Source of the DNA: Crocinitomicaceae bacterium
GTDB lineage: Bacteria > Bacteroidota > Bacteroidia > Flavobacteriales_G > Salibacteraceae
DNA: 64,000 nt
Direction of reading: 5' to 3'
Assembly: GCA_002713215.1 (NCBI GenBank)
Contig: PAVO01000007.1
Coordinates: forward strand, 124,001-188,000
Shown here: positions 7,801-56,220 of the stretch, piece after piece
Layout of the letters: each line of letters begins with the position of its first letter
Numbering within the stretch: position 1 is the stretch's first letter
Notes under the pieces: generated by a model
Told to the model about the DNA's origin: nothing
The model's input: only the letters and a program-made list of their open reading frames with translations
Databases searched by the model: none
Program-made: the position numbers and the translations under genes

Positions 7801-10800
7801 CCTAACAACGGACGTTTTTTGTCTGCATCAGATTCGGCTTTAGTAAATGGGCCTTTCTTGTACACACCATCCTTTGTGGCTAAGTTACCATTTTCATCCA
7901 AGAAAATTGGGTTACCGTCTTTGTCAGTAATGATTTCGCCGGTCTCAAGGTCTCTCAAATTGCCATCTTCATCAACATACGCTGGCTTACCATCTACCAT
8001 GACGATATTGCCGTTTTCATCAAGGAGAGGCGTCAATAAATCTCCTTGAGTGAATGGACCTTCTTTAATTACTCCTGCATCAGAAACAAGGTTTCCATTC
8101 TCATCAAGACGAATAGGGTTACCCTCTTCATCAAGCAATAGCTCACCCGTGATAGGGTCACGTGCGAACCCATTCTCATCTACGTAAACCGGCTTGCCAT
8201 CAATCATTACAGGCTTGCCGTTCTCATCGAGAAGCTGACGAAGCTTAGGCTTAGTAACATCGCTTGGCTTAAATGGGCCTTTCTTGAAGATTTTGTCACC
8301 AGCAACGATGTTACCATCCTTGTCTAGTTTCAGCGGAGTACCGTCTTCAGTTGTAACGATTTCACCCGTCTCAAGGTCACGAATGTTACCGAACTCATCA
8401 ACGTAAACTTTTTTACCATTAATCAATACGGGCTTACCGTTTTCATCAAGCAATGGCGCCGCAGATGTTGCAGGCTTAAATGGCCCTTTCTTGATAACAC
8501 CTGATGCTGAAACAAGGTCGCCGTTTTTATCAAGACGAATCGGATTGCCGTTTTCATCAAGCATAACTTTGCCTGTCAGTGGATCACGAACAAAACCGTT
8601 TTCATCAACATAGACAGGTTTGCCATCAAGCATAACTGGGTTGCCATTAGCATCTACAAGAGGCTTAATTTTTTGACCTTTGCTGAACGGACCTTTTTTA
8701 ACAAGCCCAGAATCTGACACCAGGTTACCATTCTCATCAAGACGGATAGGATTGCCGTTTTCATCAAGCAATAGTTCACCCGTGATAGGGTCACGTGCAA
8801 ACCCATTCTCATCTACGTAAACCGGCTTGCCATCAATCATTACAGGCTTACCATTCTTATCGAGAAGTGGAGTGAGTGATTTACCTTTCGCAAACGGGCC
8901 TTTCTTAACGATTCCAGCATCCGAAACTAAGTTGCCATTCTCATCAAGACGAATTGGGTTGCCCTCTTCATCAAGAATAAGTTCACCAGTCAGTGGGTCG
9001 CGAGCAAAGCCGTTTTCATCCACGTAGACTGGCTTACCGTCAATCATGACCTGTTCACCGTTCTCATCAAGGAGAGGTGTCAGTGCTTTCGATTGGCTGA
9101 AAGGGCCTTTCTTAATGATTCCAGAATCCGAAACTAAGTTACCATTCTCATCAAGACGAATCGGATTACCCTTTTCATCAAGCAACAACTCGCCCGTAAC
9201 TGGATCACGAGCAAAGCCATCTTCATCCACGTACACTGGCTTACCATCGATCATCACTGGGTTGCCGTTCTCATCTAGCAGCGGAGTTAACGCTGAAGTG
9301 TCCAACAATGGAGTGATAGTCTCCCCTTTTTCGAAAGGGCCTTTCTTAATGATTCCAGAATCCGAAACCAGGTTGCCATTCTCATCAAGGCGAATCGGGT
9401 CACCGTTTTCATCAAGCAACAACTCACCGGTAAGCGGGTCACGAGCAAAGCCGTCTTCATCCACATATACAGCCTTACCATTTAACATCACTGGCTTGCC
9501 ATCTTTATCAAGAAGCTGAGTAAGTTTCGCTTTGCTCGCAGTACCAGACTTGAATGGACCTTTTTTAACGATACCGCCATCAGTAACAAGATCACCTTGG
9601 CTATTCAGTCTTACAACGTTTCCATTTTCATCAGTCAGAAGAAGGCCCGTTTCCGGGTCGCGTAGACGCCCCTGTTCATCCACATAAACAGGTTTTCCAT
9701 TGAAAAGAACAGGATTGCCGTTTTCATCAAGTAAAGGTTTCAAATCAGAAATTGGAACGGCACCTTTTGCCCATGCATCATCATCCAGCTCTGAAATATG
9801 CTGACCAAGCTGATCAACACCATCAGCGCCAAAGATACGAGGAACGAGAGCAGGGTCACACTTTTCGCCATTGCGGTTTAGGCCTTCAAGCGAGCATCCG
9901 TACTCATTAAAACCATCCTTGTCGAGTCCGAATTGGTCTAGCCCTGTCTCCGCGTCAAATACACGAGTAATTTCATCAATCGAACAAACTGTTCCATCTG
10001 GCTTAAGGCCGTTAATGTCACAATTATGCTCATTGAAACCAAGATCATTGAAACCAAGACGCCCAAAACCTTCCTTGTTCTTGTGGAAAGGGCTCATGCC
10101 AGCATCGTCGTACCAAACAGTCATTTCTTCTTCGGTACACATTGAGCCGTCTTCCTTACGCCCTGCTAGGTCACAACCATTCGCATTTCTCTGATCTTTA
10201 TCCATGCCCAACTGGTTGATACCATTGGCGCTCCAGATTTTTGGAATGTCGTCATAATCACAGCGAGAACCGTCACGGCGGAAACCTTTAAGATCACATC
10301 CTGTTTCGATAGAGAAACCATCTTTATCAAGGCCAAACTGGTCTGCTCCCGTAATTGGGTCATAAATTCGTGTTACATCTTCTGCTGGACACAGAGAGCC
10401 GTCAGGTCGACGTCCGTTGATGTCACAATTTTTCTCATTAAAACCTTTTTTATCGAAGCCGAATTGATCTCGACCTGTTTCTGGATCATAGATTTTTGGA
10501 ATGTCATCAAAATCACACTGAGTACCATCTGGACGCAGTCCTTCAACGTTACAGTTATGCTCATTGAAACCATCTTTATTTAGGCCGAATTGATCCAGTC
10601 CTGTAACTGGGTCGAAAATGCGAGGAATATCTTCAACGTCACAGCGTGAACCGTCACGTCGGAAACCTTCAATGTTACATCCGTTAGCCGCGTATCCATC
10701 AGCATCCAGGTTGTTAATGTCCAAACCTGTTTTTGGGTTAACAAGTGATGTGCGCTGATCTTTAGGACAAAGTGAGCCATCAGGCTTAAGTCCGTTCATA

Positions 10801-15523: not shown

Positions 15524-18500
15524 TTAGCGTTTCTTGACCTTAGGTACCACATGAAGCTTTTCATCTTCGGATGGGTAATATCGTTTAATGGCTTCCACAC
15601 TTAACGTGATACCAAAGTTGTTGCAAGAAACTTCACCGGCAACCAACATCACCGCACCGTCTTCAATCAATTTACCATTAAACTCTTTAACAGGCTTATT
15701 GCCGAAGATCATACAACTGACATTATCAGCGCCATTCTCTAAGTTAAAGAACAGCATATTTTCACCAAACCAAACACTATCTTCGCGCTTAACTGTCTTT
15801 TGAACAACATTACGAACAATACCATAGGTTGTAACGCGCTGTTCATTGTAACTATCATCAATCAAGCCCACGGTAACGGGGCAACCATCAATAATCGAGC
15901 TCGGAGGTTCACGCTCCACCTTATCAGCAACTTTAAGCACTTTAATTGGGTTCGACGTTAGATAAATACCTGCATAGTGGCGCTCTGCATTCAGTGTTTC
16001 GATAACACTCTTGCTTAATACTTCATCGAAATGCGCATCCCAATTCTCTTTAGCTGATTCAGAATGTTTAACATGGTAATACGCTCGAACAAACTCCAGC
16101 TCAAACGGCGTTAGATCTCTTTGCAATGTCTTCGCCATCAGCTTGTTCATTACGCTCTTTTCTTCAAGACCACTGTTCAAAATGTCGCTAACCCAAGGGA
16201 TAGAGTTTTCTTTGGTCACCTTCTTTCGATAGAAAGCCTGATCTTCTTCTGGCATAACCGAGAATTTTTTGATGTACGAAGCACCTGCAATTGCACTAAC
16301 GTAAGCGTAGAACTCTGTTTCGTTCATGAAGCCAATATGATCATGCAAAGGGCTTTTCTCTTCGCTGTTCTTGTAGGCCTTCGACGGGATAATTCTATCT
16401 CGTAACCAGACCATAAATTCACGACCATTCCAACCTTCATGCGAGGAAACTCGACGAGGGATGAAGCTATCAAACGCACCTGTCGTTGATAATGACTTGA
16501 TTGAGTCAGAGCCAGGTTTGTGCTGGTAAGATTTTAAACGATACAAGAAATCGAATACCGACAAGTAACGACCGTTTTTCTCTCGCTCACTTACAATATC
16601 AGCGGCACTCTTACCCATATCCCTCAGTTTACCCAGACCGTAACGAATACTTTGAATTCCGCCTGACTTAAAGCGCACATCCGATTCATTGATGTTAGGT
16701 GCAAGAACCTTAATCCCCATCGCCTGAGAAGCTTCAAACACAGTTCCACTGATCTGATCTAAGTTTCGGAAACTCATTGCAGCACTATAGAACTCAACTG
16801 GGTAATGCGTTTTCAAATAGGCCGTTTTATAGGTGATGATTGAGTAAGCAACAGCATGACTCTTGTTGAACCCATAACCAGCAAATTTCTCTACTTTTAG
16901 GAACACCTGATTGAAACGCACATATTGAGTTAAAGCGAAATAAAGGCGATTCATCACTTCTTCTACTTTAGCGTCATCCAGATCGGACAAGCCAACCTTC
17001 ACAGCTGTAAAGATACCGCTTTGGTAATGCTGCTTAAACAAACGAACAACATAGTTAAAGTCATTTAGGCGCTTTTCCAGTATATCTCTCTGGTCTTCTT
17101 TTAACTTCAAAAGGACAACAAGACCATCGATCACCTTGTCATGCTCAGCCAGGTACCCCTTTTCATCGATACAACTTTCTATACCAAGGGCCTCTAACTC
17201 CGCACGAATATCGTTCAGGCATACATCAAGTTTAAAGTCGAAGTTTTGTTTTTCACCAATCTCGTAGTAATGCTCACGCCAGAAATCTTGCGCTCGACCG
17301 TTATAAACTTTTTTCTGCCGAGCCATTTCTTCAACTTTTTTCTTACCCATTGCGCGACGCAGTATATCCGCCTCACCTAATGAATAACCTGCAAGTTCTC
17401 GAACGATACTCATAACCTGCTCTTGATATACGATACAACCAAAGGTGTCTTTGGTTACCGTTTCAAGGGCTGGGTGGTCGTAGGTTGGCGCTTTACGGTC
17501 GAATTTAACATCAACATATTCTTCCACCATGCCGCTATCAAGTGCACCCGGTCGATATAACGCAGACAATACTGCAATCTCACCAATACTTCGCGGCTGC
17601 AAGTTGCCAACGAGTTTTCGCATCCCCTCACTTTCAAGCTGAAACACGTCACTCAGAATTTGATCGCAAATCAGGTTAAACACTTTCTCATCATGTTTAT
17701 CTAGTTTACGGGGATCAAGAGTCACCCCATGGTTTTGTTCGATTTGCAACACGGCCTCATCAACGATAGATAGATTTCTTAAACCTAAAACGTCGAATTT
17801 AACCAAACCAGCGCTTTCAATATCATCTTTATCGTAGATACTGAAAAAATTGCCTTTATCATCACATTCAATTGCTGAGTGATCGGTAATAGTCGTCGGT
17901 GCAATTACAACACCGCCAGCATGCACACCATATGTTGATTTCTTACCTGTTAGCGCACGAGCATGCTGGAAAATCTGCCTAAATACAGGCTGGGTATTCA
18001 ACAACGGACGAATTAAATCGTGTTCAACCAACTGATCCCACTTCACACTTGCTACAGCACTATTAATACCAAGTGAAGACTCAACCTGACTAATGAGAAA
18101 CTTCAAGTGATTCTCATAAGTCATACTAAGCCCCATCGCCTTACGCACTGAACTAATAGCAGACTTCAACTGATAGTGGTTCATGTTCGCGATTTGCGAA
18201 GATGAAGGGAAGCGAGAGCCCGGTTGTTGGTACTTTTCACTGATGTATTCGAGCACACTGTTACGATCGGCGTTTCTCCCTGCACCGAAGTCAACATCAA
18301 TATCAGGCATACTTACACGTTCAGGATTCAAAAATCGTTCAAATTGAAGATCATATTCAATAGGATCAACATCTGTGATTTCCATACCGTAAACTATCAA
18401 AGAACCTGCACCTGAGCCTCGACCGTCACCAACTGGAACACCCATATCTCGCGCGGTGCTCACAATGTCGTATTCAATCAAGAAGTAACCAGAAAAGCCC

Positions 18501-19921
18501 ATGCCTTCGATGACGCCATATTCCATTTCATGGCGTGCTAGATACTCAGGCATAAACTTATCAATATCTTCCGGATCGAATGTCTCGTGAACTTTTCTCT
18601 TAACCCCTTCCAGAGAGATTTTATGCATACAAAAATCATTCATACGGCGTTGATAAAACGCAGCCTCAGAAATCTTCTCTGGACGATCTGGCGCAATCCA
18701 TTCCTTGAATGCTAAAACCGCTGTATCTTCATCGTCAAAACGTTCTTCTTTACCTTTTAATTCGAACGCGTAATTGATCACTTCAAGAACTGGCATGTCA
18801 TAGTTAGGTAAATCAATATTACCTAAAGGAACGTGGGTGTCTGCTATGTTGTCCCAAAAACCAACATCAAGCGCGATATTGCTCGCTGATTCATCCATAT
18901 AGGTGAATACATCACTTGATTGATGAATGTGCTTTGTTTTATTCGGTGGGATAAAATCCATGTCATGGATAGACACGCCACGGTGAACAGCCACTTTTAT
19001 CGTGTATGATGTGTAATCTTCTTTTCGAGCAAACTGGGCTGTCGGCATTGGAATGAACTTTTTGTCAGAAAAATTCTCAGCCAAACGTTCAACCCATGAA
19101 GACTGCTTCTTGTTGAGTGGGTAATCCAACCCAATATTGCTAATATGCGGGATGCTACCAAGCTCAGCCAATACAGAGTCATCTACGTCATCAATTTCCG
19201 CGAATGCACCAAGAACACTAAAATCTGAAAGTGGGTCAACCAACAATACATCTTTAGCTTCCTGTTCAAAGTCATCCCACGTCATCGCAAGAGGCTTCTC
19301 AGAAGCTCCTTGATGGATGTTATGGTGTTTGTTTAAGCTTCGGATTGACATAAGGCGAAGAACGCTCTGGTAACCCTCTGTGCTCTTTGCAACAACTGTC
19401 ACCGTGCCGTATGTAAGTTCCATGTTCACGTACTTCGCTTCGATTGATGCAGACTTAATTTCTGCGTCGCTCATACGCTTAAAAGGAACATCGCCGCTAT
19501 TCCGCTGCGAAAATATTTCTGTCAGCCTTTCATTGAGTACATCATGCTTATTTTTCGCTTTCGAACGCTGACCAGCAGCAACAGCTTTAGTAAGCTGCTC
19601 TATTTCATCATAGGTTTCGCTTGGGGCTGGTGGCACAGCTTCGAGATGAGCATAAAATTGTTCGATGGCACGCTTGTTTTTCAGTGCCCAAAGCATTTTA
19701 TCTCGACTGGGGATAGATACTTCTAATGTCGCACCAACAATTGCACCAATCTCAAGATCACTGCACTTTCTAATAAATTTGATGACGGAGCTTGCGCTAT
19801 TTACGTCGATAATACCAACACGCTTAAAGCCGGCTTCCTTTGCCTGCTCAACCATAGTTTGCGCGGTGTCATTCGCAACTTCAAAAGATGCGTCTGTGTA
19901 TACGAATAGAGGTGACTGCAT
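15524..19921 (-). CDS. dnaE: DNA polymerase III alpha subunit (DnaE-like)
   Basis: 1,465 residues, a C-family replicative polymerase. Catalytic features are present: GDGRGSGAGSL (near 502), ERFLNPERVSMPDIDVDF (near 525-544, two catalytic aspartates), VKFDVLGL (near 707, third aspartate), then QEQVMSIVRELAGYSLGEAD and FNKSHAVAYSIITYKTAYLK, followed by an OB-fold region (about 1360-1440). The N-terminal PHP domain is degenerate: the metal-binding HxH and TDH are replaced by YTDAS and IIDVNS, so the domain is probably inactive. No exonuclease domain is present. The region after PDIDVDF, normally VAQI-TF, is altered (SSSQIANMNHYQ). It is likely a second polymerase for element replication or repair, and is too diverged to be the host copy. 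AAAGGA lies unusually far (19 bases) from the ATG. Confidence 0.92.
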   Translation of the reverse strand: MQSPLFVYTDASFEVANDTAQTMVEQAKEAGFKRVGIIDVNSASSVIKFIRKCSDLEIGAIVGATLEVSIPSRDKMLWALKNKRAIEQFYAHLEAVPPAPSETYDEIEQLTKAVAAGQRSKAKNKHDVLNERLTEIFSQRNSGDVPFKRMSDAEIKSASIEAKYVNMELTYGTVTVVAKSTEGYQSVLRLMSIRSLNKHHNIHQGASEKPLAMTWDDFEQEAKDVLLVDPLSDFSVLGAFAEIDDVDDSVLAELGSIPHISNIGLDYPLNKKQSSWVERLAENFSDKKFIPMPTAQFARKEDYTSYTIKVAVHRGVSIHDMDFIPPNKTKHIHQSSDVFTYMDESASNIALDVGFWDNIADTHVPLGNIDLPNYDMPVLEVINYAFELKGKEERFDDEDTAVLAFKEWIAPDRPEKISEAAFYQRRMNDFCMHKISLEGVKRKVHETFDPEDIDKFMPEYLARHEMEYGVIEGMGFSGYFLIEYDIVSTARDMGVPVGDGRGSGAGSLIVYGMEITDVDPIEYDLQFERFLNPERVSMPDIDVDFGAGRNADRNSVLEYISEKYQQPGSRFPSSSQIANMNHYQLKSAISSVRKAMGLSMTYENHLKFLISQVESSLGINSAVASVKWDQLVEHDLIRPLLNTQPVFRQIFQHARALTGKKSTYGVHAGGVVIAPTTITDHSAIECDDKGNFFSIYDKDDIESAGLVKFDVLGLRNLSIVDEAVLQIEQNHGVTLDPRKLDKHDEKVFNLICDQILSDVFQLESEGMRKLVGNLQPRSIGEIAVLSALYRPGALDSGMVEEYVDVKFDRKAPTYDHPALETVTKDTFGCIVYQEQVMSIVRELAGYSLGEADILRRAMGKKKVEEMARQKKVYNGRAQDFWREHYYEIGEKQNFDFKLDVCLNDIRAELEALGIESCIDEKGYLAEHDKVIDGLVVLLKLKEDQRDILEKRLNDFNYVVRLFKQHYQSGIFTAVKVGLSDLDDAKVEEVMNRLYFALTQYVRFNQVFLKVEKFAGYGFNKSHAVAYSIITYKTAYLKTHYPVEFYSAAMSFRNLDQISGTVFEASQAMGIKVLAPNINESDVRFKSGGIQSIRYGLGKLRDMGKSAADIVSEREKNGRYLSVFDFLYRLKSYQHKPGSDSIKSLSTTGAFDSFIPRRVSSHEGWNGREFMVWLRDRIIPSKAYKNSEEKSPLHDHIGFMNETEFYAYVSAIAGASYIKKFSVMPEEDQAFYRKKVTKENSIPWVSDILNSGLEEKSVMNKLMAKTLQRDLTPFELEFVRAYYHVKHSESAKENWDAHFDEVLSKSVIETLNAERHYAGIYLTSNPIKVLKVADKVEREPPSSIIDGCPVTVGLIDDSYNEQRVTTYGIVRNVVQKTVKREDSVWFGENMLFFNLENGADNVSCMIFGNKPVKEFNGKLIEDGAVMLVAGEVSCNNFGITLSVEAIKRYYPSEDEKLHVVPKVKKR

Positions 19922-23249: not shown

Positions 23250-23828
23250 CTAAGCTCCCACTATCTTTGTTGGGGTGAACGTGCGATCCAAGCCACTCTT
23301 AGCTAGAATCTTACGCGATTCTTCAGCTTCTTCGTCCGTGCTCAATTCGTGACATGTGCCAATTTCCTGAAGCGGTATACCAATCACTTCATGGTGATCA
23401 GCAAAATATACCTGCTTAGGATTCTGCTCATCTTTTTCAAACACTTTCATATTGAGCGACATCATATCGACATCTTCATGACCATCAATGGCGAAGACAT
23501 TTAGTCGCTTCGAACGAACCCTAATACCAAATGCAATCAACATTGTCTGCGTCCGAGGGTCGCGACCTTCAAGGTATAGATACCCTTCTTTTCTACACAA
23601 TGATGCACCTGTCCAGTCAATCTGAGTGAACCAAGGCATCATTTCTGCCGGCACCCCCAGGAAAGGTTCATCATTATCATCGCGACCACACAAGAAGTAA
23701 GCCGATGGCAAATTGCCCAACCGCATAATGCGTGGATCTCGCTCATCTAGCTCAATCATCTGATCTCGAATAAGGCGGTTGATGAACATGAAAAACATCA
23801 AACCATGGTTTTGAATACGACTAGACAT
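23250..23828 (-). CDS. Unknown protein overlapping the SecY-like gene
   Basis: 192 residues, soluble, with a mixed alpha/beta look (AYFLCGRDDNDEPFLGVPAEM, SLCRKEGYLYLEGRDPRTQT) and no signal peptide. Its start overlaps the end of the SecY-like gene by eight bases, so the two are probably translationally coupled and may work together. It shows no SecA, SecE, SecG or YidC feature. Family unknown. Confidence 0.7.
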   Translation of the reverse strand: MSSRIQNHGLMFFMFINRLIRDQMIELDERDPRIMRLGNLPSAYFLCGRDDNDEPFLGVPAEMMPWFTQIDWTGASLCRKEGYLYLEGRDPRTQTMLIAFGIRVRSKRLNVFAIDGHEDVDMMSLNMKVFEKDEQNPKQVYFADHHEVIGIPLQEIGTCHELSTDEEAEESRKILAKSGLDRTFTPTKIVGA

Positions 23829-24993
23829 ACCGTACCTCTTCCTTGAGTTTTAAATAATGCTTCGCAACATCACGAGAAGCACCAACCAATATCACTATCC
23901 CAATACCACCTACGAACCCTAATTTTGTAAATGTATCTGGCGCAATCACTTGCCATACAGCCTCAGCAAACAGAACTAAGCTAAACCAACACGTCGCTGT
24001 GAGCGCATGACGTTTAACCATGCGTTCCAGTGTGCTTTTCAGCTTCTCATGTTCTGCGTCACCACCGACCATATACACAGCCTCCTGTCTCGAAAATTGG
24101 ACAATATTATCCACAGGAGTATGCAACGAAAGCAGCGCCTTAGTGAGTATGTATACCAAACCAACTAAGATAGGCGCGTAGTACCAAGTAGAAAGAAGAA
24201 CTTGCCCGGTTGTAGCGCCTTTCCAAGATGAAATCATCATCATAATTGGATAAAACACAAACCCTGCGTAGATCACCGGCATCATTCCAACCCGCATAAC
24301 TTTCACTGGCACTACATGGGCCATAGGTGAAGATGTTGTGTTAACAGCTTTCGCAAACGCAAGCATACCTCTCCACCGTTCAACACGAATGGCCAGTACA
24401 ACAAACAAAAGACCAATCACAACACCGCCGGCGAAAATCAGCATTTCCACTTGACTGATACCAGACCATTCAATGCCTGTTAATTGTCCTGCTATACCCC
24501 CAAGAACATTAAGGCCAAGAAATAACGTTATCGGATTCCCAACCACTTTTAATGGCTTAATCATGTCAAATAGCGTTTCAAGGCAGTAGACAGTTAAAAC
24601 AAACTCTGCCCACGTAACCAATGGATGATAACTAAACCACCCTGACTCCATCTGACTCACTTGAAATGCAGCTGCACCAGAAGCAAACAAGTAGGTTAAT
24701 ACTCGTTTGGTTCTCTCTGATGATATCGGATCTCCAGCGAACCGATCATGAATAGGTTTTAATTGCCACTGCATCAACTGCATAAATAGGCCGGAGAATA
24801 TGAATGGCATCAGGCCAATAGTCAGGTAGTGGTAAGGGTGAGGGCTGTATCCTGATAGCCATGACAATGCGGACAATGCCGATGCTTTTACAGCACCGTC
24901 AGGTACATCGACTGACATAATTGGGATGAAAGCTTGTAAGTAATAAAACGCTACTGCAATTAGCAGTAGCGCATAACGTTGACCCATAGGCAT
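23821..24993 (-). CDS. secY: Divergent SecY-family translocon protein
   Basis: 390 residues with about ten hydrophobic segments; E. coli SecY has 443. Aligning by eye with SecY: FIPIMSVD (residues 23-30) matches FIPIPGID of helix 1; LTIGLMPFIFSGLFMQLMQW matches the LGIMPYISASIIxQLL helix; an IRVERWRG segment matches the VFVERGQRR loop; VPVKVMRVGMMPVIYAGFVFYP matches LPLKVNMAGVIPAIFAS; and GGIGIVILVGASRD near the end matches GGTSLLIVVVVIMD. The cytosolic loops that bind SecA and ribosomes are reduced and the plug region is not recognisable. It lies between a Sel1-repeat gene (3-base gap) and an overlapping unknown gene. It may form an alternative export channel for element proteins. Whether host SecE/SecG/SecA serve it is unknown. 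Confidence 0.85.
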   Translation of the reverse strand: MPMGQRYALLLIAVAFYYLQAFIPIMSVDVPDGAVKASALSALSWLSGYSPHPYHYLTIGLMPFIFSGLFMQLMQWQLKPIHDRFAGDPISSERTKRVLTYLFASGAAAFQVSQMESGWFSYHPLVTWAEFVLTVYCLETLFDMIKPLKVVGNPITLFLGLNVLGGIAGQLTGIEWSGISQVEMLIFAGGVVIGLLFVVLAIRVERWRGMLAFAKAVNTTSSPMAHVVPVKVMRVGMMPVIYAGFVFYPIMMMISSWKGATTGQVLLSTWYYAPILVGLVYILTKALLSLHTPVDNIVQFSRQEAVYMVGGDAEHEKLKSTLERMVKRHALTATCWFSLVLFAEAVWQVIAPDTFTKLGFVGGIGIVILVGASRDVAKHYLKLKEEVRYV

Positions 24994-42903: not shown

Positions 42904-42933
42904 ATGATAACGCATAATCAGGAAGATGTTCAA
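42904..42933 (-). promoter_or_regulatory. Promoter of 42386-42859
   Basis: Minus strand -35 TTGAAC (plus 42928-42933), 18-base spacer, -10 TATCAT (plus 42904-42909). The motif TATAACCAAG lies 27 bases further upstream at 42960. Confidence 0.55.
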
Positions 42934-44542
42934 TGTTTTTTTATTTTTCTTGTTTTTAGCTTGGTTATATTGCTATTATAGATGCATGAAAACAATATTA
43001 AACAACATCAAGTTCCAATACTTCATTGTCGCACTGACAGCTTTGTACATGGGTATAGAGACACAGTCACTACTGATGGTTTGGGACATAACAAACCATG
43101 CTCCAAGCGCTGAATTAATGGAGCGATATGAACGATTTGGATATGCAGCATCTGGCTTGGGCATAACGCTTTTGGCTGCGCGTTTACTTTTAAGAGCAAA
43201 ACTCAATTCTCTTTTGGTTTTATTTCTTGTTCCGATCATTTACTTCACATCCGTCTGGTCTGTTTATGAGGCGGTATCAAGAGCGCCAGAACTAATACCT
43301 CAAAATAAAAAGCCCCAAGCGCTTGCTTCAAGCTTGTCAATTGTAACCAGGCCAGATGTTACATCTATGTTTTCATTCTATATCGACCAGAATGTAGATA
43401 AAGAAGGTTTGGCTACGGCGTTTAATGAACGACACCCTATGCCAGCAAGGGCTATTCAAGCTACATACTTGAATGGGTTGACTTCTGTTAAGCTTATTAC
43501 GCAGCTATTCAACGGAAGTTGGAAACAGTTGGACAAATCTATATATGATCAGGTTGTCAAAGGGAGCGATTTTGCTCTCGGTTTTGAAAGTCACAAAGCA
43601 AACAACATGGGTGTCGCTGTAACAGAATTGCGCTCAATGAATAACCTGCTCGAAAAAGCGAGTCCGCTCAATTATCTGTTTTTAGCGAACCCTGAGTACA
43701 TTCGAAGCCTTCTTGAGCGTCAAGCGTCTCACGAGTTGCAGGCCAAGACACTTATTGCCATAACATACGACATGTTACCTTTTGGCAATGCCCCCGTTGA
43801 GGGCGACGGTATGGTGCGACGGTGGAACCCTGCCAAATACAGAATGAATCTTAATTCTGAAGCGGTTGAATTAGCGAACCAGAAATACTGGGATATGTTT
43901 CGTGAAAACCTAACTTTCCTCAATGAAAAAGCCCCAATTCTTGATGGCTGGGATATTGATTGGGACTTAGCAATTAGGAAGCAGTTTACTGAACATGTTT
44001 TTTCAAAACACATTGGAGGCGCCGAAGTTCCGGTTCTTCGTTGGTATGACGCCACTGAGGATTATTCGAAAAACGAAACATATTTGGCCATGCTTAATCA
44101 TGCCACCCCATTCTTCTTTGACAAAAATGGGGAACCGCTACTCAGCTTCAGAGAACTTGTTAACCCTGGAGTAAGCGAAAAAATGAGAAACGCTTTGCGT
44201 ATGGGGCTGAACGATAGCTTACAATCGCACTATGATCAGTACAGAGAATCATCGTTAGATTCTCTTATGGACTCCGCAAAAAAATGGGAAAACTTTACTG
44301 ATAATGCGACATTTTCACCGTTACTTCGCATTGGGGTTATACTCCCCGTTCTTTTTCTATTGAGCATAGCTTTGATTGTAGCCAATGCTGTATCACTATC
44401 TAAATCATCCCTATTGGCTTTAGGAGCTGGGGTGATGTCATCTGTCGTCGTTATATGCATACAGGGGACACCAGGTAGTGAGTTCCTAACAGATTTAATG
44501 CTGCATATCTCTGTACAGAAGCCAGCTATCACTCTCTTTTAA
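42926..44542 (+). CDS. Large membrane-anchored protein, unknown
   Basis: 538 residues. Four hydrophobic segments near residues 3-17, 28-48, 70-88 and 95-115 are followed by a large soluble region (125-470), then two membrane segments near 470-490 and 495-515. The soluble part includes LRWYDATEDYSKNETYLAML and helical segments. It could face the periplasm. No family seen. The ATG at 42926 has AGGAAG immediately before it, an awkward spacing; ATG at 42986 is an alternative. It ends before the repeat region. Confidence 0.7.
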   Translation: MFNVFLFFLFLAWLYCYYRCMKTILNNIKFQYFIVALTALYMGIETQSLLMVWDITNHAPSAELMERYERFGYAASGLGITLLAARLLLRAKLNSLLVLFLVPIIYFTSVWSVYEAVSRAPELIPQNKKPQALASSLSIVTRPDVTSMFSFYIDQNVDKEGLATAFNERHPMPARAIQATYLNGLTSVKLITQLFNGSWKQLDKSIYDQVVKGSDFALGFESHKANNMGVAVTELRSMNNLLEKASPLNYLFLANPEYIRSLLERQASHELQAKTLIAITYDMLPFGNAPVEGDGMVRRWNPAKYRMNLNSEAVELANQKYWDMFRENLTFLNEKAPILDGWDIDWDLAIRKQFTEHVFSKHIGGAEVPVLRWYDATEDYSKNETYLAMLNHATPFFFDKNGEPLLSFRELVNPGVSEKMRNALRMGLNDSLQSHYDQYRESSLDSLMDSAKKWENFTDNATFSPLLRIGVILPVLFLLSIALIVANAVSLSKSSLLALGAGVMSSVVVICIQGTPGSEFLTDLMLHISVQKPAITLF

Positions 44543-44545
44543 AAA

Positions 44546-44572
44546 GGGGGCAACCTCGCCCCTTCTTCCTGA
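44546..44572 (+). terminator. Weak terminator after 42926-44542
   Basis: Five-pair stem GGGGC/GCCCC (44547-44551 and 44558-44562) with TTCTTCCT, four bases after the stop. Confidence 0.5.
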
Positions 44573-45063
44573 TAAACCTTTCCACAGTTCTTATTGCGAG
44601 AGCTGTCTATGAATATTTCTTCGATGATGAACGGAAGCGCCGCGCGCGCGAAGCGTGCGCAACCATATAACAAATCCGACTTTGGAAAACCTTTATTGGA
44701 TAAATGTTTTGGCGAGGGATCATCTAAATATATGAGCCTGACAAGGCATAGCCCCTATTCCTTTTTGGTCGACCTTTAGCAGTCCTTGTTGCGATAGATG
44801 TCGATAAACATATCTCGATGGTAAACAGAAGCGCCGCGCGCGCGAAGCGTGCGCAACAACACCAAAAAATCCGACTTAGGAAAAACTTGAAAGCGCAGAG
44901 AATTGAACTGTAGCTCGCCCGTAGAAATAAAGGTCTTGTTGAGGGGGTTAAGCGATTTGGCTGATTGAAATTCACATATGAAATTAGCCGGCTACATTCT
45001 ACAAATTCCGACTATAGAAAAACTATATGGGTTCGAATAATCCGAATAGATAATTAGATGTAT

Positions 45064-45087
45064 AAAAAACCCCGCGACTGCGGGGTT
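45064..45087 (-). terminator. Terminator of 45092-45610
   Basis: Stem CCCCGC/GCGGGG (plus 45070-45075 and 45080-45085) with a 6-base T-run on the minus strand, five bases after the stop. Confidence 0.85.
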
Positions 45088-45091
45088 AATA

Positions 45092-45610
45092 TCACTTGGC
45101 CTTTGCCATCACATACGTTTCAAAGAACCTGCCAATGAGATTCTCCATGAACCTTACGACATAGTGATAATGAGCCCGCCCATCCTCACCTACTTCTGCG
45201 TAATGGTCAAAAAACCCCTCGCGAGTAACCTCTTGAGGGACCATGTTTGCAACACAGGCTTCGATAATGAAACACATGGCCCATGGTGAAACGAAATGAG
45301 ATTCCGTCAAGTGCGAAATCCCTTTGTAAAGGGGTTGGTAGTATTGGGCATGCTGGGAAAGCGCGGTGCTCTGTTCACTGACCCATTGATGGATCCAAAC
45401 TGGATCCTTTTCATTATGATCAACGACATCTTGAAAGTCTAAAAGAAAGCGTTCTGCTGTTTTCATTAGAACTTCAAGCGTTTCATCTTCACCATTGCTC
45501 TTCAGATCATCCTGCAAGATATAGCTACGAAGTTCATTCGCAGCTAATGTCGTATACTCTTCAGGTAAGTCACGACTTCCCTTTCGCTCTAACGAACCAT
45601 ATATGTCCAT
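45092..45610 (-). CDS. Unknown helical protein downstream of dsbA
   Basis: 172 residues, soluble and helical (LAANELRSYILQDDLKSNG, LMKTAERFLLDFQDVVDHNE, WVSEQSTALSQHAQYYQPLY). One Trp/His-rich stretch, DPVWIHQWV, and two cysteines in PWAMCFIIEACVANMV stand out. No signal peptide. It is 20 bases after the dsbA stop and ends at a strong terminator. Not recognised. Confidence 0.75.
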   Translation of the reverse strand: MDIYGSLERKGSRDLPEEYTTLAANELRSYILQDDLKSNGEDETLEVLMKTAERFLLDFQDVVDHNEKDPVWIHQWVSEQSTALSQHAQYYQPLYKGISHLTESHFVSPWAMCFIIEACVANMVPQEVTREGFFDHYAEVGEDGRAHYHYVVRFMENLIGRFFETYVMAKAK

Positions 45611-47130: not shown

Positions 47131-49302
47131 TTACGCCATTCTTCTCGGCGAGAAACTTCGCTCTTGCTCAACATCAACATGAGGCGCAATTACCTGCTCA
47201 GGTTGGTAATTGATAGTAAACATTTGACCATTATTAAGCTCTGGGCTTGTGTTAAGTGCATCGATAAGCTCAGGAGAATAAGTGTTCATGTAAGGGTCGG
47301 CGTCAATCCCGTTTTTCGCGTCTTGAAGCTGTTCTGGTGACATAACTTCTGTTGGTTGAGGCAGTGAACCCAAATCAATTTCTTGGCCTGCCATAATGAC
47401 ATTAGGATCACTTATACCACTATTTGCAGACACCAATTCGACATAGTCACTAATCAAATCGTAGTTGTATGGAACTCCAGCTGCTTGCAGTCGTTCTTCT
47501 ACAATTTCAGATAATGTATCGCCAGGCTCTACCGTGTAAGAGTTAGGGAATAACTCGGCATCACTGGCAGAGAGAGCTTGAACTACATCTGCTGGTGATG
47601 CGTCATTAACCACCTCAGGTACTTCTGGTTCCACTGGCACATCTGGAGTTTCTGGCTCCACTGGCATATCTGGAGTTTCTGGCTCCACTGGCACATCTGG
47701 AGTTTCTGGCTCCACTGGCACATCTGGAGTTTCTGGTTCCACTGGTGCATCTGGAATTTCTGGTTCCGCAGCCAAGCTGTCAATTAGTGAAATTTGCTTA
47801 GTCGGATCAGGACTGGCTGCAACGCCTTCCGGCTCAACAAAGAAATCTTGAATATCATCAAACATACCTCCAACTTTATTTTGAAGGTCGGCAAACATGT
47901 ATTCCTCACCATTAGGATCCAAGTCGGTGTCAATTTCTGGGTCAGTGTTAGTAGCCAATTCTGCATCAGTTGGCCCTGGACCAGATGTTGCGAACTGTTC
48001 TTTTACGGAATCAACTGCATCGCCAATTTTTTGGGAAACGGTGTCCAATATGCCGTCAGTATTTTCCGGCACTGGATCAGTGTTAGCAGCTAACTCTGCA
48101 TCAGTTGGTCCCGGGCCTGAGTCCGCAAAGTAGTCTTGAACTGCGTCAATCGTTTCGCTCATAGTTTCTGATGCGGAATCAACAACTCCGCCAATCTTCT
48201 GAGAAACACCATCTAAAAACGTTAATTCAGAATCTGGGGCAGGACTCGCCATTACTTGTTCTGGCTCACTGAAGAAATCTCTTGTTGCGTCCATCGCATT
48301 ATCAAATCCTTCAGTAACCGGGGCGAAATCAATACCATCTACAAAAGCCAATGCAGACTCTTTTAGTTTGAGAACATCTTCAGCCTCAACTACCCCTAAT
48401 CCAATCAGTGTCACAGATGCCGCCAAAGAAGCACCTACTGTCACTTTTTTAAGAGTATCCTTTGGTACTTTGGCGCACTGTCGCTTAAACCAGTCCCCTA
48501 GACCCGTTTTGTTTACAACACGACTAATCCCAACAGCAGCCTTTTCTCTTAGAGGGCTAAATGTCTTGGTCTTTAAGATTCCCGCTACCGCTTGTGAAAC
48601 GAAAAAACCAGTTGGATTTAGCATTACACTGCCGGCTTTCAACATCCCCATTGCACAGGCGCCAAGCATTGAAGTTGATTTGTCTTTGCTCGACTTTAAC
48701 TTACCTAACTCTGATTCAAGACCGGGGTACTTTTTGTTAAATAGCGCCACTGTTGCTGGCATGTGTCTTGTTTTAGGATTTACGCTTTCAAACCCTTCAC
48801 TGGCCACCGCTTTAATTTCAGCAGAAAGCTCTTTTTCGATTTCAGGGTAATCACGCTTAAATTTCTTAACCGTATCTGCATCAAATAAGCGTTGGGTTGC
48901 ATACGCTTCTGGGCCGAGTTCAACCTGCACGTTTAACAAAGTTAACTGCTCTTTTTCAGGCTTACTTAACGATTTTCCGCTCTTTGCTAACTCAGCTTCT
49001 TTTTCAAGGAGGGGCAGGCGTTTCTCGTCCAGCTTGCTAAACTCTGCCATGGCATCATATTCAGGGCCATAGAAATTTCGCGTAAAGTGTTCTTCAAGCT
49101 TTTCCTTATCAGGGCCACTTAAATCGGGGTGCAAACGCTTCTTTTCTTTAAGAAAAGCTTTTAGTTCTGCCTCATAACGTTTATTTCTTTCCGCAAGAAC
49201 ACGATCAAGCAGCATGATGTTACGCAGCGAACGCGCGTACTGTGGTGACGTTTTGCTTGGTTTGGCGTCCACTGTTTCCGGTGTAGCATCATCCTTTGCC
49301 AT
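47131..49302 (-). CDS. Large LysM-containing protein with PEPT repeats
   Basis: 723 residues. N-terminal 200 residues are basic and helical (LRNIMLLDRVLAERNKRYEA). Two hydrophobic segments (about 220-245, GMLKAGSVMLNPTGFFVSQA; 275-290, GASLAASVTLIGLGVVEA) may be membrane anchors. Residues 300-515 are acidic, with repeated ATSGPGPTDAEL and DSxSET motifs; residues 510-565 hold five VEPETPDVP-type repeats that make a stiff Pro-Glu rod; LysM-like TVEPGDTLSEIVEE (near 588) follows, then a C-terminal tail. The plan suggests a cytosol-anchored protein spanning the periplasm to peptidoglycan. It could scaffold the transfer machine. No family is recognised beyond LysM. Confidence 0.75.
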   Translation of the reverse strand: MAKDDATPETVDAKPSKTSPQYARSLRNIMLLDRVLAERNKRYEAELKAFLKEKKRLHPDLSGPDKEKLEEHFTRNFYGPEYDAMAEFSKLDEKRLPLLEKEAELAKSGKSLSKPEKEQLTLLNVQVELGPEAYATQRLFDADTVKKFKRDYPEIEKELSAEIKAVASEGFESVNPKTRHMPATVALFNKKYPGLESELGKLKSSKDKSTSMLGACAMGMLKAGSVMLNPTGFFVSQAVAGILKTKTFSPLREKAAVGISRVVNKTGLGDWFKRQCAKVPKDTLKKVTVGASLAASVTLIGLGVVEAEDVLKLKESALAFVDGIDFAPVTEGFDNAMDATRDFFSEPEQVMASPAPDSELTFLDGVSQKIGGVVDSASETMSETIDAVQDYFADSGPGPTDAELAANTDPVPENTDGILDTVSQKIGDAVDSVKEQFATSGPGPTDAELATNTDPEIDTDLDPNGEEYMFADLQNKVGGMFDDIQDFFVEPEGVAASPDPTKQISLIDSLAAEPEIPDAPVEPETPDVPVEPETPDVPVEPETPDMPVEPETPDVPVEPEVPEVVNDASPADVVQALSASDAELFPNSYTVEPGDTLSEIVEERLQAAGVPYNYDLISDYVELVSANSGISDPNVIMAGQEIDLGSLPQPTEVMSPEQLQDAKNGIDADPYMNTYSPELIDALNTSPELNNGQMFTINYQPEQVIAPHVDVEQERSFSPRRMA

Positions 49303-55497: not shown

Positions 55498-56220
55498 GTG
55501 TTTACTCGTGCATTGCAAAAACTACAGTCTCGTAAGAAATGGCTTATCTGGCCATCCGCTATTGTCGCGACGTTCTTCGCTGCGATATACGGTTCTGCAC
55601 ACTTCTACCCGGCCGCGATCGTTTACGGCGCATCAATGACTCCAGGTTTAGTTCCTCAAGAGAGAATTATTGGTGAGCGATACTTCGATGCTCCACAGCG
55701 CCATCAAATCTTCGTAATTGATCAAAACCAAGTTAAGCATGATAAGGTAACCCATGTTAACGGACCTTACATTAAACGATTGGTTGGGGTTCCAGGCGAT
55801 AAATTGGTTTTCCGTCTTGACGATGGTGAGCTTCTATCTATCAATGGCGAAGCAGTAAAAACAATACCTGCACCTGAATACGATGCATTCGAGCTGGCTA
55901 GCACCTTAAAAGAAACTAAGGGAGCTAAGTTTACCGGTTTTGCTCGTCATTTAAGTGTGAGCGGGGTTAGTTACACTGTTTACCAGGCCGCGCTGGACAC
56001 CCTTACGGGACCAGGTAAAAACTTGTTTAAGAAACAGGCATTCAACTACCCGTTCCTTAATGAGAAGACATCAGACGGAAAGTACGCATCAGTAATCATC
56101 CCAGATGGCATGTACTTCGCTTTATCTGATAACCGACCTGTAGGTATCGATAGCCGTCACTTTGGACTAGTTCCAGAGAGTGCGCTGAAGTACAAATTAA
56201 ATTCTGAAACACAAAAATAG
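55498..56220 (+). CDS. lepB: Signal peptidase I (S26, LepB/TraF-like)
   Basis: 240 residues. One membrane anchor (LIWPSAIVATFFAAIYGSAH) is followed by GASMTPGLVPQERI with the catalytic serine, then YIKRLVGVPGDKLVF with the catalytic lysine, then SDNRPVGIDSRHFGLV (box E). All residues for Ser/Lys leader peptidase activity are present. It has a single anchor and is shorter than E. coli LepB (324), closer to TraF-type plasmid peptidases. Start is GTG with AAGGAA six bases before it. It processes exported preproteins and is cotranscribed with the HU-like gene (stop and start overlap). Confidence 0.95.
   Translation: MFTRALQKLQSRKKWLIWPSAIVATFFAAIYGSAHFYPAAIVYGASMTPGLVPQERIIGERYFDAPQRHQIFVIDQNQVKHDKVTHVNGPYIKRLVGVPGDKLVFRLDDGELLSINGEAVKTIPAPEYDAFELASTLKETKGAKFTGFARHLSVSGVSYTVYQAALDTLTGPGKNLFKKQAFNYPFLNEKTSDGKYASVIIPDGMYFALSDNRPVGIDSRHFGLVPESALKYKLNSETQK

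Follow-up and report, generated by a model that had tools for sequence, protein, structure and literature searches.

The plasmid described here can be compared with several known systems. Its closest relative is the Alteromonas mediterranea plasmid pAMCP48-600 (NZ_CP018025.1; 603,655 bp), which has the same gene order and lacks the repeat family, the motif, the recombinase, the 197-aa ORF197 and the Rep genes present here. Cre/loxP and plasmid multimer-resolution systems provide a second comparison, in that one of the two repeat loci lies with a gene for a Cre-like recombinase, close to a probable replication origin; the sites here, however, are six direct repeats without a lox-like inverted repeat. 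Duplicated, hairpin-forming noncoding elements on conjugation-type plasmids are represented by the Frpo/ssi elements of F and ColIb-P9, F carrying two homologous hairpin promoters, Frpo1 and Frpo2 (PMC9849209), whereas the units described below rebuild no -10/-35 by folding and, in the window, are not upstream of leading genes. Each window unit also contains d(GCGAAGC), a DNA mini-hairpin for which extraordinary stability is described (Hirao 1994, as cited in PMC9547003), as a sequence-only reading of the region had also stated.

The carrier replicon

The window, a 64,000-nucleotide stretch of DNA that was analysed as a whole, is part of contig C7 (372,442 bases) in an assembly of 56 contigs and 5.03 Mb, and lies on a conjugation-type megaplasmid with a T4BSS (Dot/Icm-type). 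Genes in the neighbourhood include those for IcmW, DotH/IcmK, DsbC- and DsbA-like proteins, the DNA polymerase III alpha subunit, SecY and signal peptidase. The C7 backbone is collinear with pAMCP48-600, the closest known carrier replicon, which has homologues of 158 of the 353 C7 ORFs and of 49 of the 236 ORFs on a second contig, C4. The two contigs share a G+C content of 43.8%, are opposite in GC skew and probably constitute one megaplasmid, as judged from composition, gene content and the repeat rather than from the assembly.

The T4BSS megaplasmid contigs have gammaproteobacterial affinity and share their bin (4.39% contamination) with Bacteroidota-like contigs; their mis-binning is probable. 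A lipoprotein-like gene on contig C19 is presumed, from general knowledge of such proteins, to mark a Bacteroidota genome in the bin. Among the megaplasmid's own genes are those for RecA, gyrase B, NAD-dependent ligase, DnaE, SecY and signal peptidase (C7:335618-359723; window 15524-19921, 23821-24993 and 55498-56220). A region conserved in pAMCP48-600 (C4:2414-7814), with genes for a Cas6-like protein and a DinG-like helicase and three more genes, looks like a type IV-A CRISPR-Cas locus. Many small genes in C7:1-46 kb and across all of C4 are preceded, at a distance of some dozens of bases, by the palindrome AACAACAAAAGTGTTGTT or a variant of it, a replicon-wide promoter/operator family; the C7 copies have a conserved cassette of ~100 nt and a -10-like box, and no copy is listed within the window. 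Tandem repeats also occur inside genes of the window, namely ~207/234-nt repeats in a 2386-aa gene next to DotH (8529-9521) and 27-nt repeats in a LysM-protein gene (47623-47767).

The repeat array in the window

Two ~109-nt direct repeats (44585-44693 and 44780-44888; 83% identity over 109 nt, spacing 195) are present in the window, bearing out the pair of ~105-base repeats with an identical 30-base core that the sequence-only reading had described. Borders drawn from alignment and profile (about 44560-44700 for unit W1 and 44756-44896 for unit W2) run somewhat beyond the extent stated earlier. The array and its surroundings, in window coordinates, comprise the following features.

42926-44542, plus strand: 538-aa gene, the left neighbour; homologue in pAMCP48-600 with 28% identity over 524 aa
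44547-44562, no strand assigned: terminator-like hairpin separating the 538-aa gene from the array; its U-run tail was scored for the minus strand
44560-44700, plus strand: repeat unit W1 (nhmmer C7:168561-168698)
44634-44663, plus strand: 30-nt core GAAGCGCCGCGCGCGCGAAGCGTGCGCAAC, copy 1, with the GC hairpin insert, which is absent in both C4 copies
44642-44660, plus strand: 8-bp stem closed by GAA (GCGCGCGC-GAA-GCGTGCGC), copy 1
44675-44689, plus strand: motif site 1, TCCGACTTTGGAAAA
44756-44896, plus strand: repeat unit W2 (nhmmer C7:168758-168894)
44828-44857, plus strand: 30-nt core GAAGCGCCGCGCGCGCGAAGCGTGCGCAAC, copy 2, with the GC hairpin insert
44836-44854, plus strand: 8-bp stem closed by GAA, copy 2
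44870-44884, plus strand: motif site 2, TCCGACTTAGGAAAA
45007-45021, plus strand: motif site 3, TCCGACTATAGAAAA, with one mismatch and no GC hairpin
45068-45087, minus strand: terminator-like hairpin of the 172-aa gene, the right border of the array
45092-45610, minus strand: 172-aa gene, the right neighbour; homologous to the pAMCP48-600 gene across the slot

The core is identical in W1 and W2, with 0 expected from shuffles, and both of its copies in the whole 5.03-Mb assembly are those in the window. The two units differ by mismatch or gap in 37 columns of a 137-column alignment, and with that number of differing columns an identical 30-nt run was obtained in 0.07% of permutations (p = 0.0007). 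The half-copy reported at 45008, CCGACTATAGAAAA, is present as a third CCGACT copy. The stretch is noncoding, and the flanking genes are convergent, as described.

The pAMCP48-600 homologues of the two flanking genes have a 364-aa gene between them and no repeats; a homologue of that gene lies here at C4:78502-80091. Because the content of the slot differs between the two plasmids, the repeats are to be regarded as an accessory occupant of a variable slot rather than as backbone. The position of the array between two terminator-like hairpins implies that little read-through transcription is to be expected, and favours a DNA-level role or an independent RNA over a read-through 3' end.

The stem of eight pairs, one of them G-T, with its GAA closure was found in both core copies as described. 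The 7-mer GCGAAGC occurs 11 times in the window and so is not special alone; other 8-pair GAA-closed hairpins are present in C7 and C4, those listed on the plus strand not being GC-rich. Folding of the two GC hairpins is no better than that of shuffles of the same composition (z -0.03 and z -0.62), and the folding energies of units and hairpin are approximately what base composition gives. The proposal that the G-T pair favours RNA or plus-strand DNA held for DNA (-9.5 kcal/mol on the plus strand versus -7.9 on the minus) but not for RNA, where the minus strand is slightly better (-16.1 versus -15.0). The view of the hairpin as the conserved part of the element is contradicted by the second locus of the family, on C4, which is without it, and by a 20-nt motif outside the hairpin that is kept at six sites. 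As judged by sequence comparison, the GC hairpin is a window-specific insert of 24 nt, a variable rather than a conserved part of the element.

The conserved motif and the second locus

The 20-nt motif common to both loci is AAATCCGACTNWGGAAAAMC. When TCCGACTNNGGAAAA was searched for with one mismatch allowed, six sites were found in the 570 kb of C7 and C4, three per locus and each on the plus strand of its contig; the Markov expectation for both strands is 0.68, and the largest count in 40 simulations was 2. Sites without the hairpin also exist (window 45007 and C4:191326). The half-sites hardly vary, whereas the dinucleotide between them does, a pattern like that of a double-stranded recognition site. 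A search of the whole assembly for AATCCGACTTTGGAAAA with up to two mismatches gave four convincing matches, two in the window and two in C4 (173 nt apart), and two further matches, each isolated; a backwards-reading control of the pattern gave 0 matches in the assembly. The motif match at C19:159674 was rejected, since the contig is Bacteroidota-like and the match falls in coding sequence. When one unit pair was made into a profile, the other pair gave its best matches outside itself in the 570 kb (E 0.0005 to 0.06).

The repeat family has two loci in the 5.03-Mb assembly, with a tandem pair at each. A REP/MITE-type mobile repeat, which would have many dispersed copies, is rejected on this count, and the scattering of the core as a mobile repeat, named beforehand as evidence against a special role, was not seen. 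The second locus is at C4:190.4-190.7 kb; its units, A and B, are homologous to the window units by alignment, are preceded by a GTTACATGTAAC-type palindrome in place of the GC hairpin, and have diverged from the window copies outside the motif. No true copy was found among plasmids, phages, viral contigs and 84,980 species genomes (one scan), the matches being chance-like at most, single motifs without the surrounding unit and mostly in apparent coding sequence; the GC hairpin sequence was absent from the viral contigs searched. As far as these collections reach, the family is new.

An acetyltransferase-like gene precedes the C4 pair, which is followed by ORF197 and a gene for a tyrosine recombinase (337 aa). 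Two of the C4 motif sites are upstream of these last two genes and the sixth copy of the motif is found at the ORF197 3' end, in the ribosome-binding region of the recombinase gene; one copy starts 20 nt ahead of the recombinase start codon. The recombinase belongs to the Phage_integrase family, matches XerC/XerD models below their cut-offs and has Cre as its closest solved structure. ORF197 has no recognisable protein family, and single-sequence structure prediction gave no fold (pLDDT 41). Relatives of the recombinase, ORF197 and DnaE were not found in viral contigs. An ORF197 match on a Catenovulum plasmid, weak and in a cellulose-synthesis region without repeats, was rejected, and in the 17-kb stretch read of a Vibrio plasmid that encodes a related Rep, no recombinase adjoins it.

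AAA_25/DnaB-like and rep-like genes follow near the C4 array, and beside them, at the contig end, are about ten 107-bp tandem repeats (CGATCAGAATGAAGCCTT...; C4:195849-197284), a probable iteron origin of the megaplasmid about 5 kb from the C4 units. Unit B contains a promoter-like site, TTGATG-16-TATAAT, in which the TCC of the motif is three bases past the -10 box. TATAAA at C4:191326 and TATAAC in W1 are in the same register, and the other three sites are without such a box; an operator overlapping a promoter would fit some of the motif sites, not all.

Putative recognition sites and alternative readings

The reading tentatively favoured here, with a confidence that falls short of even, is that the window array consists of orphan recognition or regulatory sites of the ORF197-recombinase module, with AAATCCGACTNWGGAAAAMC as the putative binding site. 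C4-encoded ORF197 and the Cre-like recombinase would form a plasmid maintenance module and the array its cis-acting sites. The recognition unit would be the directly repeated 20-nt motif, its two half-sites flanking the variable dinucleotide, with the fold-back sequence ahead of it serving as a variable helper, where the window copies may have gained the GC hairpin. Binding at the C4 sites would control the module, and the sites in the window would form an additional, orphan set in a variable backbone slot, acting as a distant partner or titration site; alternatively, it may be the leftover of an earlier copy of the module. The family, its two loci, the strand bias, the recombinase association and the absence from pAMCP48-600 are observed; that a protein binds the motif, which one does so and what the window copies do are inferred. 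A tyrosine recombinase adjoins the C4 array, and neither a recombinase nor an ORF197 gene lies beside the window array, so the association of motif and recombinase is one adjacency among two loci.

No lox-like inverted repeat was found in either array; the best scores are 6-7, with imperfect arms, and neither array has what was taken to define a lox/dif site, a 4-8-nt spacer flanked by two inverted arms of about 11-15 bp. Lox-like sites beside the genes of three related recombinases score 9-15, with arms of 12-15 bp and spacers of 4-6, and are upstream. The arrays are therefore not ordinary lox-type crossover sites.

It is unlikely that each unit is instead the core of a plus-strand small RNA or leader, whose parts would be an outer stem, an inner hairpin and, at the 3' end, a conserved single-stranded tail. 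RNAalifold gave z -5.2 for the plus strand (0/200 column shuffles) under one MAFFT setting out of three, and in that one alignment the outer stem reads TTGCG/CGCAA in the window and GGCGCG/CGCGTC on C4; A, B and W2 form an outer stem around an inner hairpin as single strands, and the promoter-like site of unit B is also in keeping with an RNA. Against this, the other two settings give no stem at the outer-stem position in an alignment of four sequences, single copies fold no better than shuffles, and the GC hairpin competes with the outer stem in the window. The noncoding stretch of the window has one weak promoter-like site, the number expected by chance, and the most conserved part of the unit is unpaired or nearly so. 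The earlier suggestion of a structured RNA thus retains modest covariation among four copies, but no Rfam covariance model matched and a known Rfam family is rejected.

That the array is a relic, the decayed control region of a C4-type module whose genes have been lost and which has no present function, is considered slightly less likely still. The isolation of the window copy from recombinase and ORF197 genes, the different gene in the pAMCP48-600 slot and the divergence of window and C4 copies outside the motif are consistent with decay, but all three window sites preserve the motif, and the core is identical despite the many differing columns around it, although recent exchange between the copies could equally explain the latter.

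A conjugation single-strand DNA element (ssi, Frpo-like promoter or oriT hairpin) active on plus-strand transfer is a little more doubtful again. The replicon carries T4BSS genes and the units, duplicated like the hairpin promoters of F, fold as single DNA strands, the window copies better on the plus strand. However, W1, W2 and A have no -35/-10 pair and the -10 of B is outside the stem, so folding rebuilds no promoter, and an Frpo-like promoter, in which the stem-loop rebuilds -35/-10 in a duplex arm, is rejected; DNA folding of the units is no better than that of shuffles, and no leading-region gene lies ahead of the window copy. Relaxases of the three families searched (PF03432, PF08751 and PF07514) are absent from the assembly, which is compatible with an oriT served by a relaxase of another family. 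Related megaplasmids are typed as non-mobilizable despite their T4BSS genes, which, together with this absence, suggests that the relaxase of these megaplasmids may be of an unrecognised kind.

An iteron-type origin of vegetative replication at the window array, for which the direct repeats in a noncoding stretch and a DnaA box upstream of the C4 array might speak, is highly improbable and was rejected, as the mean GC skew is negative to either side of it with no sign switch, there is no DnaA box within about 10 kb, and the iteron-like array next to rep-like genes is elsewhere (C4:195.9-197.3 kb). What stands of the sequence-only reading overall is a noncoding, duplicated element on a mobile-type replicon with possible single-strand structure; the hairpin is not its conserved part and the oriV is unsupported.

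The recognition-site reading can be extended to a new plasmid cis-element, a direct-repeat motif with a fold-back strand at two distant loci, putatively used by a Cre-like recombinase module, although this is a speculative and quite improbable extension. Such an element would recombine or tether folded or distant DNA in transfer or segregation, for example, instead of a lox-type site. The locus illustrates that the most conspicuous feature of an element, here a hairpin, can be variable while the conserved core sits elsewhere. For giant T4BSS plasmids the searches made here turned up no relaxase of the three families tested and no lox-like resolution site; if AAATCCGACTNWGGAAAAMC is the target of the module, it would offer a handle on the maintenance and movement of such plasmids.
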